From Gymnopus androsaceus JB14 (taxonomy: Eukaryota > Basidiomycota > Agaricomycetes > Agaricales > Omphalotaceae): a stretch of DNA of 64,000 nt. The notes below the pieces were generated by a model that saw only the letters and a program-made list of their open reading frames with translations, did no database searches and was not told the origin of the DNA. Every line of letters begins with the position of its first letter. The first letter of the stretch is position 1. Shown here in pieces: positions 34,538-42,148 of the stretch. A program made the position numbers and the translations under genes. Where the stretch lies: NCBI GenBank assembly GCA_009733575.1, contig ML769438.1:62001-126000 (forward strand), given 5' to 3'.

Positions 34538-35346
34538 TCCTTCGTGATTGGATTCTGAAGAGCGTTGAATCTAAAGAGCGAAGTGTTAATAACATACTGC
34601 AGCGTTTACCAGATCACTTGCCATGTATGTCGCAGCCTACTTGGTCCACAAAATTAAAAAAGATAATTATTCGACTGTGGAAGATGAGGAAAGAAGAGGA
34701 AACGAGAGTGAGCGGAGATCCTACTCCAGTTTCATGAATGGTAGAGAATAAGGGGCTCTACATTATCACTGTTCCGCGCGCGCGCTATTTGGGTATAATT
34801 CAATACCACGTGAGCTCATATTACGCGCTTTGTAGCGCACTCGAGAACGGCATGGTTCATTTTTTGATTTCCGATGGCTGTAAACGTAATGTCTGATGTC
34901 AAAATGATGTCCATTCGGTTTATGCCGAAATACCGATATGGGCGCTTAGTGACAATCATGTGCAAAGTATTTATGTTGTAGGGTGTGGGCTCTATTAGGC
35001 TCTATTGCTAAGCTAAGAGGTGACTATGATAGACTTGTACAACATTTATAAGTATGATTCCAAATATATGTATGGGTCTGTTAATGTTTGACTAAGGTAT
35101 TGCAGTTTTCTTTTGGTTCCTTATGAGACAGCTTGAAGATATCATAGTCTGCCATATGTCCCTTGGCCTTGGAGCATGCCATCTTCTGAGTTGATTACAG
35201 GACAGGTGCTATACCATACAGATGGATAGATAGAATATATATATATACATGGTGTGACCTCAGGATGTTGAACCTGAGAGAGGAACCATACAGGTTACCC
35301 TGCATCATAAGATTGGACTTTTGTAGCCATAAACTTTTACTGCTGC

Positions 35347-37734
35347 TTAGTCCTCCTCACCCTCCAAGTCCTTGCTGCTCTCATCCTCATCACCATCTTT
35401 ATCTGAGGCTGCAAATCCCATTGCTTCACAGCGGTCAACACAGACATGGGCACCAATATAGTTATCAATACCATCCTGACCATGGTCTCCAGCTCCACTT
35501 TTTCTAAAGTAATATATTGTGAGAATATGTTAAGTTGGACTTATCTTGAAGAACGTACCCATTATTTGTATGGAACATCATGTCAAAGAGAACATGTTTG
35601 CTACCAACCACAGAGGCTAAAGTATCAATTTCAGCTGGGGCCTTTGAACGAGAGGGATAATCACATACTTTGCACATCTGCCAATACAACTGTCTTCTTG
35701 CTGTACAAATATACAAAATGGCCAAAGCAGGTAAGAACACTTCCAACCATGTTGTTGGTGTAAGATGGATGTTCACAAGTACCAGTCCATTTCTTGAACT
35801 GTTTTTGGCGTCTGGGCTCCAACAGCCAAGCCACAGTAGTGTAATTTGTGGTCCCTGGATACTGGAGGTCATACAAATCCAGGCCAGAAGCAGGTGAGGG
35901 ATTGTGCCCAGTTCCAACAATTTCAAATGCAAGAAGAAAATTAGTGACCTTGAGCTCTGTGGATGATATTTGAGTACTGTGCATGAAATATATCAAAGAA
36001 CAAATACCATCACCAATATCCACACCATGGTCTTCAGCAAGAGTTTGGAAACATTTGTAAAAATACCCAGTTTGAGCCAGGCGAATGGATTCCTTTTCAA
36101 GTTCATCCTTGTTTGTATTAATATCCACACTGTCCGGACCTTTCCCAACATTGAAAAATCGCTTTGCTACCATTTGTTGACCCCTAAATGTAAGCTGAAA
36201 ATATCAAGCTTGTCAGACACATTTTTAACCTGAAATGTAATTTGAACTTACTGTATAGACCTTTTGGGTCTTGCCTTGAGCAAAAACTTCATCAGAAAGG
36301 CTGCCTTGCTCAAACTTCAATTGGGCTATGTCTGAAATCAAATTTGTTGGCCATTCAATTGCAACCTTTCCTGTGACCTCATCTACTTGAATAGAAGCAA
36401 TGACAAAGTTGACCATTGTAATGCCTGATGGTGCAAATGTTGACTTCAATGGTACACTGGTGGACAGGGCTAAGAGTAGGTCAGATGAAGTTGAAATCAA
36501 CCATACTGAATCTGTACAAACCTTTTGTTCTTGGGATTTTTGAGGAAGGGAAAGAGCTACTAAGATGAGCCTGATCAGCATCTCTTTTTTTCATGCGGCG
36601 GGTTTGTTCAGCTGTTCCAAGAGCAAATAGTGGCGCTTCGCATTTGTAGTGTGCCTCAAACTACATTGATAAGTCAGCTCATTATGTCAAAAGATTGAAC
36701 AGATTGGTTTACCTCCTCCACTATAATTACTGCCTCCAAAAAGATAAAAGGAGGCTTGATTATGATATTGCCAGGTGTTCTTTTGCGTGGATCAGGAAGG
36801 TATGGCTCATTCAATGTATAGAACTGCTTGAGTGTTCCACCATCACTATCCACAACAATATTCCGGGAGCCAAAAAATTTAATGGAGATGAAGTCACTTG
36901 GAGGAGTCACAAGAAATTTAATTTCATGAGCCACAAACAAAGAAGTACACCAGCTCACCGAGTTAATGGATATTGGCACCATGTTTTCCATCCAAGATTT
37001 AAGCTTTGCAAACAGTCATCAATGACATCTGGTAAGATAGTTAAAGAATGTCAGCATTACAATATAAGTTGTATCTGAAAAGATTTAACAAACCATAGAA
37101 CATCATTGTCTCTGGATAGTCCTTATTGGCAAAGCCAAGCTTTTCCTTGGTGCGCTTATTTTCTGTGATAGGCCAAAGGTAGACAGGATATTGTTTAACA
37201 TTGGCAGCAGCAGCCATGGACTCCTTTCTGACAGAATCAGTTTTTTCACCCGGTTTCTGCCGGTTAGGCCCAATCATTCCCCGTGCAGCCATGCCTACCC
37301 GGCGCTCATCCTCTTTAAGTTGCTGTGCTTGTGCACATTTGGCTGCCAGATCATCACTCATACCATCTTCTGTCAGAAAATATTAGTGATATGGAAAATA
37401 AACAAAGATATTATTTAAAAAACTCACTCAGCTGTTTCTGGTGGCAACCACCACAGGTTGAACGATCTTTGGGAAGATAGAGTGAAACAGCACCACAGTC
37501 CACACACTGTGGCCAAGTCTTGATGGCAAGTCAACAATGTGAGCGCAAGAAATGAAGAGAGAAAAAACACATCCTAACCTCCTTAACAGCTCTATCTGCT
37601 TCATCTTTGGCTTTTGAAAGAAGAAGACACCTAGCACAAGGTCCTGGGTGGTCTTTGTTTATGAATGAGGCATTGCAAGCAAGATGTGGTTCCTCAGGAT
37701 GAGTGCAAAGGTTGTGATTTTCAGTGTCAGACAT
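35347..37734 (-). CDS. Alpha-kinase (atypical protein kinase) carried in the transposon
   Basis: The start MSDTENHNLCTHPEEPHLAC is followed by CARC, a second Cys cluster (WPQCVDCGAVSLYLP, CGGCHQ) and a Lys/Arg-rich segment (RQKPGEKTDSVRKES). The C-terminal alpha-kinase domain begins MVAKRFFNVGKG, with the Lys of the ATP site, and continues with NPSPASGLDLYD, VAWLLEPRR, FGHFVYLYSKKTVVLADVQ, SGAGDHGQDGIDNYIGAHVC and VDRCEAMGF. The last parts give the Gly-rich loop and the zinc-binding His/Cys residues of the MHCK/EF2-kinase family. About nine short introns join in frame. First exons are 37734-37579 and 37518-37428. The stop is TAA 35349-35347 after an acidic tail. The product would phosphorylate proteins on Ser/Thr; the substrate is unknown. 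Alpha-kinases are expanded in mushrooms (from memory). Being inside transposon ends is the unusual point. Confidence 0.75.
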
Positions 37735-37830
37735 TGCAATAAGAGCAGGAAGTTGCCAGAAATTGTAGAACTGATATCAGATGCTCACCACACATTTCCT
37801 CTCCTTTATATCTCCCAGGATAAAGAACTT

Positions 37831-37844
37831 TAGACATTAGACAT

Positions 37845-37878
<34 letters not shown>

Positions 37879-37922
37879 TTAGACATTAGACATCAGACAT
37901 TAGACATTAGACATTAGACATT
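37831..37922. repeat. Heptamer microsatellite TAGACA(T/G), 13 copies
   Basis: Thirteen consecutive 7-bp units (TAGACAT or TAGACAG, one CAGACAT) lie between the kinase start (37734) and the transposase start (37999). It is thus in the shared divergent promoter region of the transposon. Confidence 0.9.
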
Positions 37923-37998
37923 ACAGTCTTATTTAAGAATACTGAGTGTGGTCAGTATATTGGCATTGTTCCCTCTCTCAATATTTTTCCAAAGTCAT

Positions 37999-39602
37999 AT
38001 GCCAAACCCCACTGGCAAGAATGGAAATGACAATGGCACATGTATGTTTTTGACAATTTTCATACTCTCAGATTTCACTCATTTTACTTAGGCCCTCCAG
38101 ATGATGTCCTAAAGAAAGCACTACATGATTATGCCATCAAAGGATTTCCACTAGCTGATCGACTAGATTGGCTCAGTAAGGAATTTGGATATCACATAAA
38201 GTAGGCTGTGTGTTAATTCTGAGGCTCTTATTAATGTGTTGATTTTGCTTGATGTACCAGAGAACGCAAACTGAGACAGCTAAATGCCAAATTTGGTGTA
38301 CCATCAGTCCGGAAACCACCTCCACTTCCAATTGCAACAACAATTGTTGCACAGTACTCTGCTGAAAATCTTTCATCTCGCAATGGACCAGCAACAATTC
38401 AGAAAAAAATTGCGCAACTTGAGAAAATACTAATTCCCCGGTATGTTTTTCATTTAGTTCAGAAAGCACAACAATCTGCTCAAAGTGTTGCTTGCATAGG
38501 GACATGGTCCGTCAGATCATGCTGATGAATGATCCGGATGGGTTTGATATTCGCAATCCAAGTCGCAAACCAGTTGCACGACGTAAAGGCCACCTTACAG
38601 GTGCTGGTACCTTTCAAGAGATTCATTGTGATGGTCATGAGAAACTTTCCTCCAAAGCATTGCAACTTGGAGCTGTAGGAATTGACATTTACGGAATGAG
38701 ATGTCATAGTAGTGGCTTAATTGTGTCAGAGCAGGTTGTCCCAAACTCAAGGTGTGAGTATACCATTGCACACCGCTACTTAGATATGGTGGAAGAGTAT
38801 GGAGGCAAGTGATATACTTGCATACTGTTTAAAGCTGACTTTTTTATATAGAAATACCATTGCAGTTGACTGTTGATGGTGGCACTGAGACTGGCCAGAT
38901 GCGTGCATGCCATATTGCATTCCGGTATGCTCTTCTGTCAGATTGTTTTATGTATGCTTTCTAACTGTTCTGGTCTGTAGACAGATCTATACACCAGATT
39001 TGCCACTTGATCAAGTGCCTGCATTTGTTGCCCTGAAGAGTTCTGACAATGTCCCTATTGAATCCTCTTGGAGTAATATGAGAGACTATAATGGTCGGGA
39101 CTTAAAAGCTGCAATTCTGCTTACAAAAGATGCAGACAAGCGATACTTTAACCCATTGGACCCATTGCATGTGTATGTTTCTTTGCAATTATTTAAATAC
39201 CTGTACTTTACTTACCATTCAAAATTCAGAAATCTTTTCAACTGGGTGTGGCCAAAAATTGCTCAACAATCTGTTCTGGAGTTCAAGGAGTACTGGAACC
39301 ATCACAGACCACGCCGACAGCATGATAAGATATTGCCAAGTGGTGAATTTCCTATCAAAGTATTCAAATTTCCAAAAAATTATGGACTGAAGCACTGTGG
39401 AGTAAAAGTTGACATGGAGGTTGTACAACACTTGCGGGGAACATTGGAAAAGACAAAAGAGGACTGTTTTAGATGGGTATCTGATGAGTTTGATATTCAA
39501 GCTCAAGCTGCTTATGAAGAGCTTAGGAGGCCTGAGTTGAAAATTGTCTCTGGATGGAGTGTATTTTGCTCTATGCTTACCATACTCAGAGACATGGATT
39601 AA
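37999..39602 (+). CDS. Integrase-core (DDE) transposase, 7 exons
   Basis: Exons 37999-38041, 38092-38200, 38261-38440, 38500-38804, 38852-38924, 38981-39172 and 39230-39602 give 424 residues with every junction in frame. The intron after 38804 uses a GC donor (GCAAGT). The start MPNPTGKNGND is followed by CPPDDVLKKALHDYAIKGF and LRQLNAKFGVPSVRKPPP (helical DNA-binding-like region). The catalytic core has EIHCDGHEKL (Asp155), LQLTVDGGTETG (Asp221) and SSDNVPIESSWS (Glu264), a D-65-D-42-E arrangement as in retroviral-type integrase folds. The C-terminus has PRRQHDKILPSGEFP. It matches, from memory, an Agaricomycete multi-copy 'integrase core domain' family. No lesion is visible, so it could be active. 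It would cut and join the 34832/41128 ends. Confidence 0.8.
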
Positions 39603-39963
39603 CTAGAGTATTTTAAGAATGATTATCTAGAAAAAAAGTTTGGTTACAAGGCTTTAAGGGCTCTCAGTCTGCCATTCTGGTGCTGAATGCTCCTTAGTCT
39701 GAATATCACTTCCTCTAGACTGAAGGATAGTCAGAACAGCAATATTGATTCATTGTTTTAACTTTGAATGGGTATTAAAGCCAGCCACTTCATACCACTG
39801 TAGCACAAAAATCTTGCAAAACTATATACTTGGAAAGTAATTAACTATAAGCTGTACCATATGAGAGGCCATTTGATAATAATGAGTGTAGTACTTGAAT
39901 TAAATGTGGAATTCTATGCCTAACATGAATGTATGAGTCAAAGTAATTAGGTTTTAATTGCAG

Positions 39964-40959
39964 TCACAATCTCACCTTGGTTGCCCTGTCAAATTTTGCC
40001 CAGGTTGCATTTGTGTGAGCTCCCATGTCAATGTAATGCCGAAGGAGCAGGGAAGACTGATATTTCTTGAATGTGACATATGCCTTGTCCACTGTTGACT
40101 TCTTATATGGAACTCCAAAAAAAGCTTCCTCAAACTGAACTTTCCTTCCACATCCTGGAGGCCGCTTTCCATCTCCACCACGGATAGTATCCATGGTCAT
40201 GAAGCCATTCACAATTTCCAAAGTATAATAAGCCCCAGGCCATTTGCGAGCTTTTATAGCAATTAGTATAGATGGTAAGTATAAAACATAAATTTCACCT
40301 TGTCGGACTGAATTACTGTTTGGAATTGATTGCAGTGCCACTGGGATTTTTCATGAATGAACTGTCTGGATATGAAAAGAATCAAAAACTTACAGGCTCC
40401 CAGACTGGTACTTGAAGTACTTTCTGCACTTGCAGAAACCAATGCATTAGTTGTAGTGGGGTCCAGGCCAGCTTGAGCATTTGATTTACAGGCTGTCATT
40501 CAAACAAGAAACACTAAATCACTTACTGAAGGCAGTCATGCTGTTAGTTACTTGAACTTGTGCTGTGTCAAGTGCTCCATAATCCACAGTGTTAGTGTTG
40601 GTGCTGGTTTCAGTGGCTAAGGATATATCAGCCTCTATATGGAGAGATGGGAAGGCAGCAGTAATTTACGGAACCAAGTAGCCATTAAAAGGTTGATATC
40701 AATGGAACCAGTCTCCATGGGATGCTCTGGAATCAAACTGGGCAAATCCACTAAGTAGGACAGCATATTAGTTAATAATTGGCTTGAAATGAAAGGAACA
40801 GTCAAACGTACATGTGATAGTATCATCTACCATTGTCCAATCCCATTGCGTGTGAATAGACTGGTCCAAAGGTCCAAGTAAAGCGGAAAGATCAAAAGAA
40901 TGTGTATCAATATCATAGCTGTCAAAAGAATGGCTATTTTCGTAGCCGTCCGACTGCAT
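39964..40959 (-). CDS. Third transposon gene, function unknown
   Basis: On the minus strand the protein starts MQSDGYENSHSFDSYDID. After short introns it passes through LPSLIPEHPMETGSIDIN, ADISLATETSTNTNTVDYGA and a Ser/Thr-rich linker (ALVSASAESTSSTS). It ends in a conserved-looking C-terminal block: KWPGAYYTLEIVNGFMTMD, CGRKVQFEEAFFGVPYKKST, FKKYQSSLLLRHYIDMGAHT, then NATWAKF. The block with W-P near its start and FGVPYKKST looks like a small helical, DNA-binding-like domain; this is a guess. The stop at 39966-39964 may be overridden by a splice donor (GTGAGA) just before it. Its place inside the transposon ends suggests a role in transposition or its control. Exon borders are my inference. 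Confidence 0.55.
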
Positions 40960-40998
40960 TAGTAGCAAAGATCCCGAGTCAGTCAGTGGAAGAGAGAA

Positions 40999-41042
40999 GA
41001 CGTGGCGATATGGCGACGTGGCGATATGGCGACGTGGCGACA
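40999..41042. repeat. 16-bp subterminal tandem repeat of the transposon
   Basis: Unit GACGTGGCGATATGGC is present nearly three times (40999-41014, 41015-41030, then partial), about 85 bp inside the right end of the 6.3-kb transposon. Repeats in this position often bind transposases. Confidence 0.75.
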
Positions 41043-41269
41043 TGTGGAGCCATGTGATCGCGAGCGGTAAATGAGATCCCGGCCCGCGGAAATTCAAAAA
41101 GGAACCATGCCGTTCTCGAGTGCGCTACGCTTTGGCAGCGCCTGTTCTGTGTTCAGTACAAGCCCACTGAATGCCAGCACCAGGCAGTTACTCAGAGGCT
41201 TAAAGAATGCCAGCAATAGCAGCATCGTGCTCCCCTGAGATCCGCTGACTGAGGAACTTCCCTAGCAGG

Positions 41270-42148
41270 ACATCTGGATGGCGGTTTAGACGATCACAGT
41301 TTCTTTTGCTTGTTGGGAGCTAGCACGAAACCCTGAAAAGCAAACTCGTCTGCAAGCAGAGCTGATTAACCCTAGATTAAGCGGAGATCCAGCTTACCAC
41401 GAATTGCAATATCAAGCTATCTACAATCCGTGCTGCAGGAAATGTAAGCCTTTCTTCAGCTTCATGTTCACTCGTTTACACTTGAACTTGCTTAGGCTTT
41501 GAATGTATCCTCAGCTTGCATATATGGAACGCACTTCCGTAGAACAGGACGTAATTCCTCTTCGCAGGCCTGTCCAATTAGCAGATGGTGGATTAATGAA
41601 CGAGTCATCATATCTCCCGGCCAGGTTTGTGATGTCCCCTACATAATAATTCCCAATACTGACGCGATGACCAGGCCGTTTTAATTCCAATCATTGCTAT
41701 TCAGCGTGATAATGATGTGTGGACTAATGAGGACGAATTCAGGCCTGAACGATGGGTGGACGGTGAGGGGAACTTCCTTCCCCAGAGCAGCTATTTGGAG
41801 GATGGTCTGGCCTGCTTTCTTTTAGTGATGGTCCCAGAAGTTGTATTGGCTCGGTACTCGGTAAGTTCTTAGTTCCTTCAAAGTTTGGGCTATAACTGAC
41901 CCCTGTTACTTGCAGCTACTTACAACTACAAGGTCAGTGGTCATACCGTCTAAAGCTTAGAGTCGCCGTTAAGTATGAGCTCTCATCTAGGCAGATTATA
42001 TCACAATGCCTTGGAGGCGGCATCTGGTATTGACCACATGTCATTGAAGATATCTTCCAGTATAAACCCATTCGTGCATCGAAATGCTAATAATCCCAGT
42101 GAAAATCGACTTCCAATCATTTTGGTACCTCTTGCTAGAGAGCAGTAA
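41270..42148 (+). pseudogene. Cytochrome P450 pseudogene (3' half)
   Basis: Motifs appear in order but in shifting frames: I-helix end and J-helix (SFACWELARNPEKQTRLQAE); K-helix YLQSVLQEM then L-stop-MYP, where the Arg of E-x-x-R has become TGA; then YMERTSVEQDVIPLRRPVQL. Next are AIQRDNDVWTNEDEF and RPERWVDGEGNF (PERF-like), and the heme-binding FSDGPRSCIG (about 41819-41848). The C-terminus is LKISSSINPFV and ENRLPIILVPLAREQ with stop at 42146-42148. Introns are still visible (GTAAGC...CTTAG, GTAAGT...TGCAG). P450s oxidise small molecules at the ER membrane. Upstream exons are missing; the 6.3-kb transposon ends about 140 bp away. Confidence 0.75.

Follow-up and report, generated by a model that had tools for sequence, protein, structure and literature searches.

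The window analyzed here, a stretch of 64,000 nucleotides (positions 62,001-126,000) on contig C56 of the assembly of Gymnopus androsaceus JB14 (Omphalotaceae, Agaricales), contains a unit of approximately 6.3 kb that is, as far as its sequence can tell, an intact-looking cut-and-paste DNA transposon carrying an alpha-kinase gene beside its transposase gene. We are very confident of the identity of the element and of the co-mobility of kinase and transposase, and assign a probability of roughly 0.85 to the fuller interpretation, a complete transposon of the IS3EU/GingerRoot type with the alpha-kinase as its second core gene. Comparison with related copies places both genes within one unit bounded by terminal inverted repeats (TIRs) that was evidently inserted whole. 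Closed units, correlated distances between the two proteins, invariant residues and a low ratio of nonsynonymous to synonymous substitutions (dN/dS) together lead us to conclude that element and kinase move as one and that the kinase has been kept by selection.

The ends of the unit are formed by an inverted pair at 34832-34858 and 41102-41128, which is perfect over 27 bp as a first-pass annotation of the window had described it; a random sequence of 64 kb would be expected to hold about 1e-7 such pairs. If the arms are extended to 47 bp they are 89% complementary. In the reading we prefer the element spans 34833-41127. The left TIR (34833-34858, forward strand) is then TAGCGCACTCGAGAACGGCATGGTTC with 26 bp, or 27 bp if the preceding G is counted, and the right TIR (41102-41127, reverse strand) is its inverted copy, so that the element begins with TAGCGC and ends with GCGCTA. 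A scan of the 64 kb allowing up to seven substitutions found no further TIR copy.

The border is flanked on both sides by CGCTTTG (34826-34832 and 41128-41134). A target duplication had been proposed as the 5 bp GCTTT; the duplication itself is present, and its length is better read as 7 bp with GCTTT as the inner five. GCTTT followed by an end starting GTAGC and CGCTTTG followed by an end starting TAGC are two descriptions of identical bases, and we favor the latter because six sister elements have TA or TG ends and duplications of 6-8 bp. Contig C133 provides an empty site, in which ACGCGCTTTGGCAGCG runs uninterrupted with a single duplication copy at the exact junction; it is compatible with both the 5-bp and the 7-bp reading. 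This site is a paralogous repeat copy with 80% identity over the 240-base query. The flanks of the element (34720-34832 and 41128-41261) are themselves part of a repeated sequence, another copy of which lies on C133 (L076).

The whole assembly (83.3 Mb, 934 contigs) was searched for relatives of the element. Exon matches clustered by place gave 14 related transposase loci; partial or weak matches of two other transposase queries on 13 further contigs stand outside this count and outside the kinase check. An alpha-kinase occurs within about 4 kb of ten of the 14 loci, and seven of these ten pairs lie between TIRs with perfect duplications of 6-8 bp outside them, in agreement with the earlier suggestion that element and kinase are mobilized together. 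The seven are the window element on C56, C281:23095-29108 (duplication GTGCGCAA, 8 bp), C42:105144-111349 (CTAGACC), the first pair on C288 (30690-37787, AGCGTAT), C22:273206-278404 (CAGATC), C254:96767-99504 (GTCAGTG) and C47:286975-292299 (GCAGAG). All of them have TA or TG ends. The six relatives start with TAGCG, TAACG/TAGCG, TAACG, TACGG, TGACG and TGACG, and their duplications measure 6, 6, 7, 7, 7 and 8 bp, next to 7 bp (ambiguous between 5 and 7) in the window. On C110, on C411 and in the second pair on C288 kinase and transposase stand together with unresolved ends; no TIR pair was found around C110 within 10 kb or around C411 within 9.5 kb, and the second C288 pair, located at a contig end, showed no TIR in 4.25 kb.

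Empty sites, which the first-pass annotation had recommended looking for, exist in precise form for three of the seven resolved elements, each with a single duplication copy at the exact junction. Besides C133 for the window these are C845 for the C281 element, matching at 205 of 205 bases around the junction and at 98.5% over the rest of the stretch compared, and C190 for the C47 element, matching at 213 of 220 bases (C176 gave a 73% match to the same query). C845 is perhaps the second allele of the C281 site kept as its own contig, and if so, a decayed kinase-bearing copy would still be polymorphic.

Seen from the side of the kinases, 13 alpha-kinase loci were found by a Pfam scan and two more (C411, C387) by other queries, these counts being lower bounds. 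Ten of the 15 lie beside a transposase, three are element-type kinases next to which no transposase turned up, and two belong to another type. The probability that nine of the 13 Pfam loci fall within 4 kb of a transposase by uniform placement is about 5e-23, and chance adjacency is therefore rejected. The orientation of the two genes is opposite in the window and in eight of the nine other pairs: seven of the ten are head-to-head, two convergent (C47 and the second C288 pair) and one, C22, has both genes in the same direction. In L069 and L070, two closely related elements, kinase and transposase are oriented differently towards each other, a sign that one of these elements underwent an internal inversion. 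The two alpha-kinases of the different type, on C198 (L028) and C66 (L033), have no significant match to the element kinases, and no transposase was found near either.

Within the window element the genes are ordered kinase (reverse strand), transposase (forward strand) and a third gene (reverse strand). Their exon models were built manually and contain no internal stop or other lesion, which upholds the earlier description of three spliced genes free of nonsense lesions. The transposase gene (37999-39602) comprises seven exons coding for 424 amino acids, with a GC-AG intron 4. Spliced alignment with an independent protein from Favolaschia (P0008) returned the identical seven-exon structure, including the GC-AG intron, and traced the last exon to 39587 of 39602. 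The proposed catalytic triad of an integrase-type DDE transposase was recovered: D155 is found in 14 of 14, D221 in 13 of 13 and E264 in 15 of 15 aligned proteins covering the respective position. No HHCC motif precedes D155, the sole cysteines there being Cys15 and Cys154 in the window model. The window protein matches Pfam rva_4 with E 0.0015, which is below the cut-off. Profile tests on 30 of the 120 listed homologues gave rva_4 matches with E of 0.01 or better in 27, some of them below its cut-off; at E up to 0.1 the NCBIfam IS481 model matches five (best 6.5e-6) and the IS3 model six (best 0.017). The predicted fold of the homologue P0001 has its top matches in TnsB, MuA and retroviral integrases, with low TM-scores.

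The alpha-kinase gene (35347-37734, reverse strand) has 11 exons coding for 613 amino acids. Its catalytic domain, residues 370-587, matches PF02816 with E 5.6e-21 and 75.9 bits (cut-off 21.3); the best sequence match among solved structures is weak (E 0.018). Both the catalytic and the zinc-binding parts claimed at first sight are present and invariant where covered: K389 is conserved in 12 of 12 kinases, and H520, D534, Q536, D554, H581, C583 and C587 each in 15 of 15. We take these residues to be the catalytic lysine, the DxQ motif, the aspartate and the zinc site known from the family. A catalytic lysine, DxQ, Asp, a glycine-rich loop and an HxCxxxC zinc site are common to the window kinase and the PF02816 family with myosin heavy chain kinase A, TRPM7 and eEF2K, whereas the window kinase differs by N-terminal cysteine modules (residues 10-36 and 57-77) for which no Pfam family scored above cut-off. 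The first module recurs in all five own-genome kinases (out of ten) whose models reach it and in five of 13 database kinases, the second, as a pattern, in three of those five and in four of 13. These patterns were composed after the sequences had been viewed, and several of the database models are short at the N-terminus.

Kinase and transposase have evidently been inherited together through the deep divergence of the transposon family. Their distances correlate with r 0.88 over 13 pairs and 0.87 over 15 (permutation p = 1e-4), and nearest kinase and nearest transposase are concordant in 14 of 15 pairs. Maximum-likelihood trees of the two proteins agree on five clades of two members and one of four. 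Five of the correlated pairs come from other species and were joined solely on the equal size of their contigs: in other mushrooms five of 13 kinase matches could be paired in this way, via the longest contig, with a transposase of the same species, drawing on 120 listed of 132 transposase matches (one pair lies on a 9,214-base Lentinula contig).

The substitution pattern shows that purifying selection acted on the kinase in the past, and the catalytic and zinc residues are fixed. Between the window and C281 dN/dS (NG86) is 0.163 (0.12-0.21) for the kinase and 0.098 for the transposase; between C42 and C288 it is 0.232 (0.17-0.31) and 0.193, respectively. In the comparisons of C22 with C254 and of C288 with C110 synonymous sites have reached or nearly reached saturation. 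Among 13 kinases non-sister pairs are 21-48% identical, and the C47 kinase is 21-29% identical to the other 12.

A number of observations weigh against this interpretation. At four of the 14 transposase loci no kinase was found within the parts covered, namely C248 at 37 kb (34600-36900 and 37665-41294), C548 and C48 (about 1.5 kb per side) and C699 (contig-level kinase searches); the transposase matches of C248 and C548 contain stops, possibly intronic. Conversely, no transposase was found beside the element-type kinases on C655, C387 and C248 at 25 kb, the last having a transposase 12 kb away, and for C387 this absence rests on the genome searches. Several copies are decayed, with stops, frameshifts or missing N-termini, so that their spliced models are approximate. 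Stops or frameshifts interrupt the kinase or the transposase on C42, C254, C47 and C411 and in the second pair on C288; the aligned parts of the first pair on C288 and of C110 and C22 are free of both. In the C281 copy portions of each of the three genes survive, but kinase and transposase are missing their N-terminal portions, the kinase and the third gene have a stop each, and the element is interrupted by insertions of roughly 1.0 and 0.7 kb. The correlation of distances takes no account of shared tree structure, C411 departs from the nearest-neighbor match, and the trees are discordant within the clade of L066, L067, L068 and Lentinula. Finally, purifying selection demonstrates a past function and not its nature.

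Many DNA transposons encode little beyond a transposase. That the kinase was kept with the transposase through deep divergence with an intact active site suggests that phosphorylation is part of the life of the element, and the kinase gives the impression of a functional component of the transposon rather than of a chance passenger. Transposons do capture host genes, and some copies carry a decayed kinase, as could be expected of a neutral gene captured once and dragged along. We nevertheless consider this explanation very improbable, and reject it on dN/dS: the two pairs that allowed an estimate gave 0.16-0.23, with intervals that stay far below 1, and the catalytic and zinc residues are invariant in 15 kinases despite the low identity of non-sister pairs. 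It is likewise improbable that different transposons of the group captured alpha-kinase genes independently. The remoteness of the C47 kinase and the failed nearest-neighbor match of C411 would be in line with such captures, whereas the agreement of kinase and transposase relationships for 14 of 15 pairs and the first cysteine module in all five own kinases whose models reach it, a pattern set after viewing, speak against them.

We lean towards the view that the kinase activity serves the element. The kinase would be produced together with the transposase from a divergent shared upstream region, its N-terminal cysteine modules might direct it, and our best guess is that it phosphorylates either the transposase itself or a chromatin or repair protein of the host; such phosphorylation could license transposition and thereby allow the element to move or persist. 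This licensing mechanism in particular we put forward tentatively, at somewhat less than even odds. A weaker but serious candidate is an action against host defence, in which silencing, heterochromatin or checkpoint proteins would be phosphorylated rather than the transposase. Retention with the transposase is compatible with either substrate and the data fit both. Kojima 2025 (PMC12730594) describes the TET/JBP genes of other fungal transposons as thought to counter DNA methylation, and places a TET/JBP gene between transposase and alpha-kinase in TET+ IS3EU elements, which would suit a role against host defence; in the genome studied here no TET/JBP match exceeds the cut-off. Alpha-kinases are signalling enzymes elsewhere, and the kinase could be cargo that benefits the fungus and is kept by host selection. 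A high expansion of the family in rusts, as stated in PMC4469406, may be counted for such a benefit. We regard it as unlikely, as the copies are diverse and often decayed and C281 has an empty counterpart, which looks like selection at the level of the element rather than of the host, and as kinase and transposase are closely co-inherited.

Several features point to the IS3EU/GingerRoot superfamily: the TA..TA ends, IS481/IS3 profile matches in some homologues, the integrase-type fold, and the TAYGG ends with a 6-bp duplication of C47. Of the superfamily traits given in PMC10045372, TA..TA or TG..CA ends, a DDE transposase related to IS3/IS481 and the lack of an HHCC motif are shared with the window element, and duplications are usually 6 bp, compared to 6, 7 or 8 bp in the family described here. 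The word kinase is absent from the main text of that paper. Kojima 2025 (PMC12730594), whose main text mentions the kinase at a single place, reports there that all TET+ IS3EU families, from rusts and one truffle, have the TET/JBP gene between oppositely oriented transposase and alpha-kinase genes; kinase cargo in IS3EU is hence not new as such. According to the same paper these elements are, like the window element, TIR-bounded with transposase and alpha-kinase in opposite orientation, and differ by TIRs over 30 bp, 6-bp duplications and TAYGG..CCRTA ends, to which only C47 (TACGG, 6 bp) corresponds among our seven resolved elements. What sets the window element apart are its TAGCG ends, its 7-bp duplication, the head-to-head arrangement of its genes, the additional third gene and the mushroom host. 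Between its kinase and transposase, in a gap of 264 bp, no TET/JBP gene is present, and a genome-wide search with PF12851 gave a sole match on C425, below cut-off. The TET/JBP-carrying Kyakuja, Dileera, Zisupton and Plavaka, as introduced in PMC12730594, are also fungal DNA transposons with an added enzyme gene, with different transposases and a different enzyme. In the open-access literature, to which the search was confined, we found no other link between alpha-kinases and transposons, no mushroom case and no analysis of the kinase. The TET-less form in mushrooms, the long co-inheritance, the selection on the kinase and the clade-specific third gene are what we report as new.

The first-pass annotation had speculated that transposons multiplied the alpha-kinases of mushrooms. 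This fits the present genome with ten of 15 loci beside a transposase; for mushrooms in general it would be an extrapolation. For rusts, a table in PMC4469406 gives alpha-kinase counts of 79 and 39 in columns we took to be rusts, an expansion that would fit transposon amplification. More broadly, we see about an even chance that kinase and transposase of the superfamily are conserved functional partners, the activity of the kinase being needed for transposition or regulating it, and that the alpha-kinase expansion in mushrooms and rusts largely reflects element copy number and not the evolution of host signalling. Alpha-kinase counts in such genomes call for a different reading, as many of these kinases may be transposon genes.

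Some minor features accompany the element. The start codons of kinase and transposase lie head-to-head 264 bp apart, and between them lies an array in which the 7-bp unit TTAGACA is repeated 13.4 times (37830-37923). The left element end matches this array in inverted orientation at 34886-34903, for which reason the array could be bound by a protein. Immediately inward of the right TIR a 16-bp repeat, GACGTGGCGATATGGC, is present in 2.9 copies (40999-41044). A search for more TIR-bounded copies with a 14-base end pattern gave 14 matches on both strands and equally 14 for the reversed control, so that such matches are mostly due to chance. C93 (L018, about 1.5 kb per side) and C346 (L007/L008) were discarded as single end-like sequences lacking a partner end or matching genes; the lone IS3EU-like end on C346 is situated within a larger imperfect inverted repeat, about 3.8 kb in length, whose arms exceed 140 bp.

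The third gene (39964-40959, reverse strand) has six exons coding for 254 amino acids, with a conserved C-terminal domain from about residue 160. No Pfam family matches the protein above cut-off, and the structure model of the C-terminal domain is poor (pLDDT 51); dN/dS of this domain is 0.41 (0.21-0.72). The first-pass annotation had asked whether kinase and third gene recur between the ends, and this holds for the kinase in the seven closed units. The third gene was found by the genome search in the window element and, decayed, in its C281 relative, and in no other element; it is probably a later, clade-specific addition. The public G. androsaceus JB14 protein P0134 (BT96DRAFT_937411) is identical to the third gene except for one skipped exon and a different N-terminus, which places the window in that strain or in one sharing the insertion. 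This N-terminus (window 40959-41225) crosses the right TIR from the right flank of the window element, and as the model thus starts in flanking DNA and runs through the TIR, its 5' end is probably mis-annotated.

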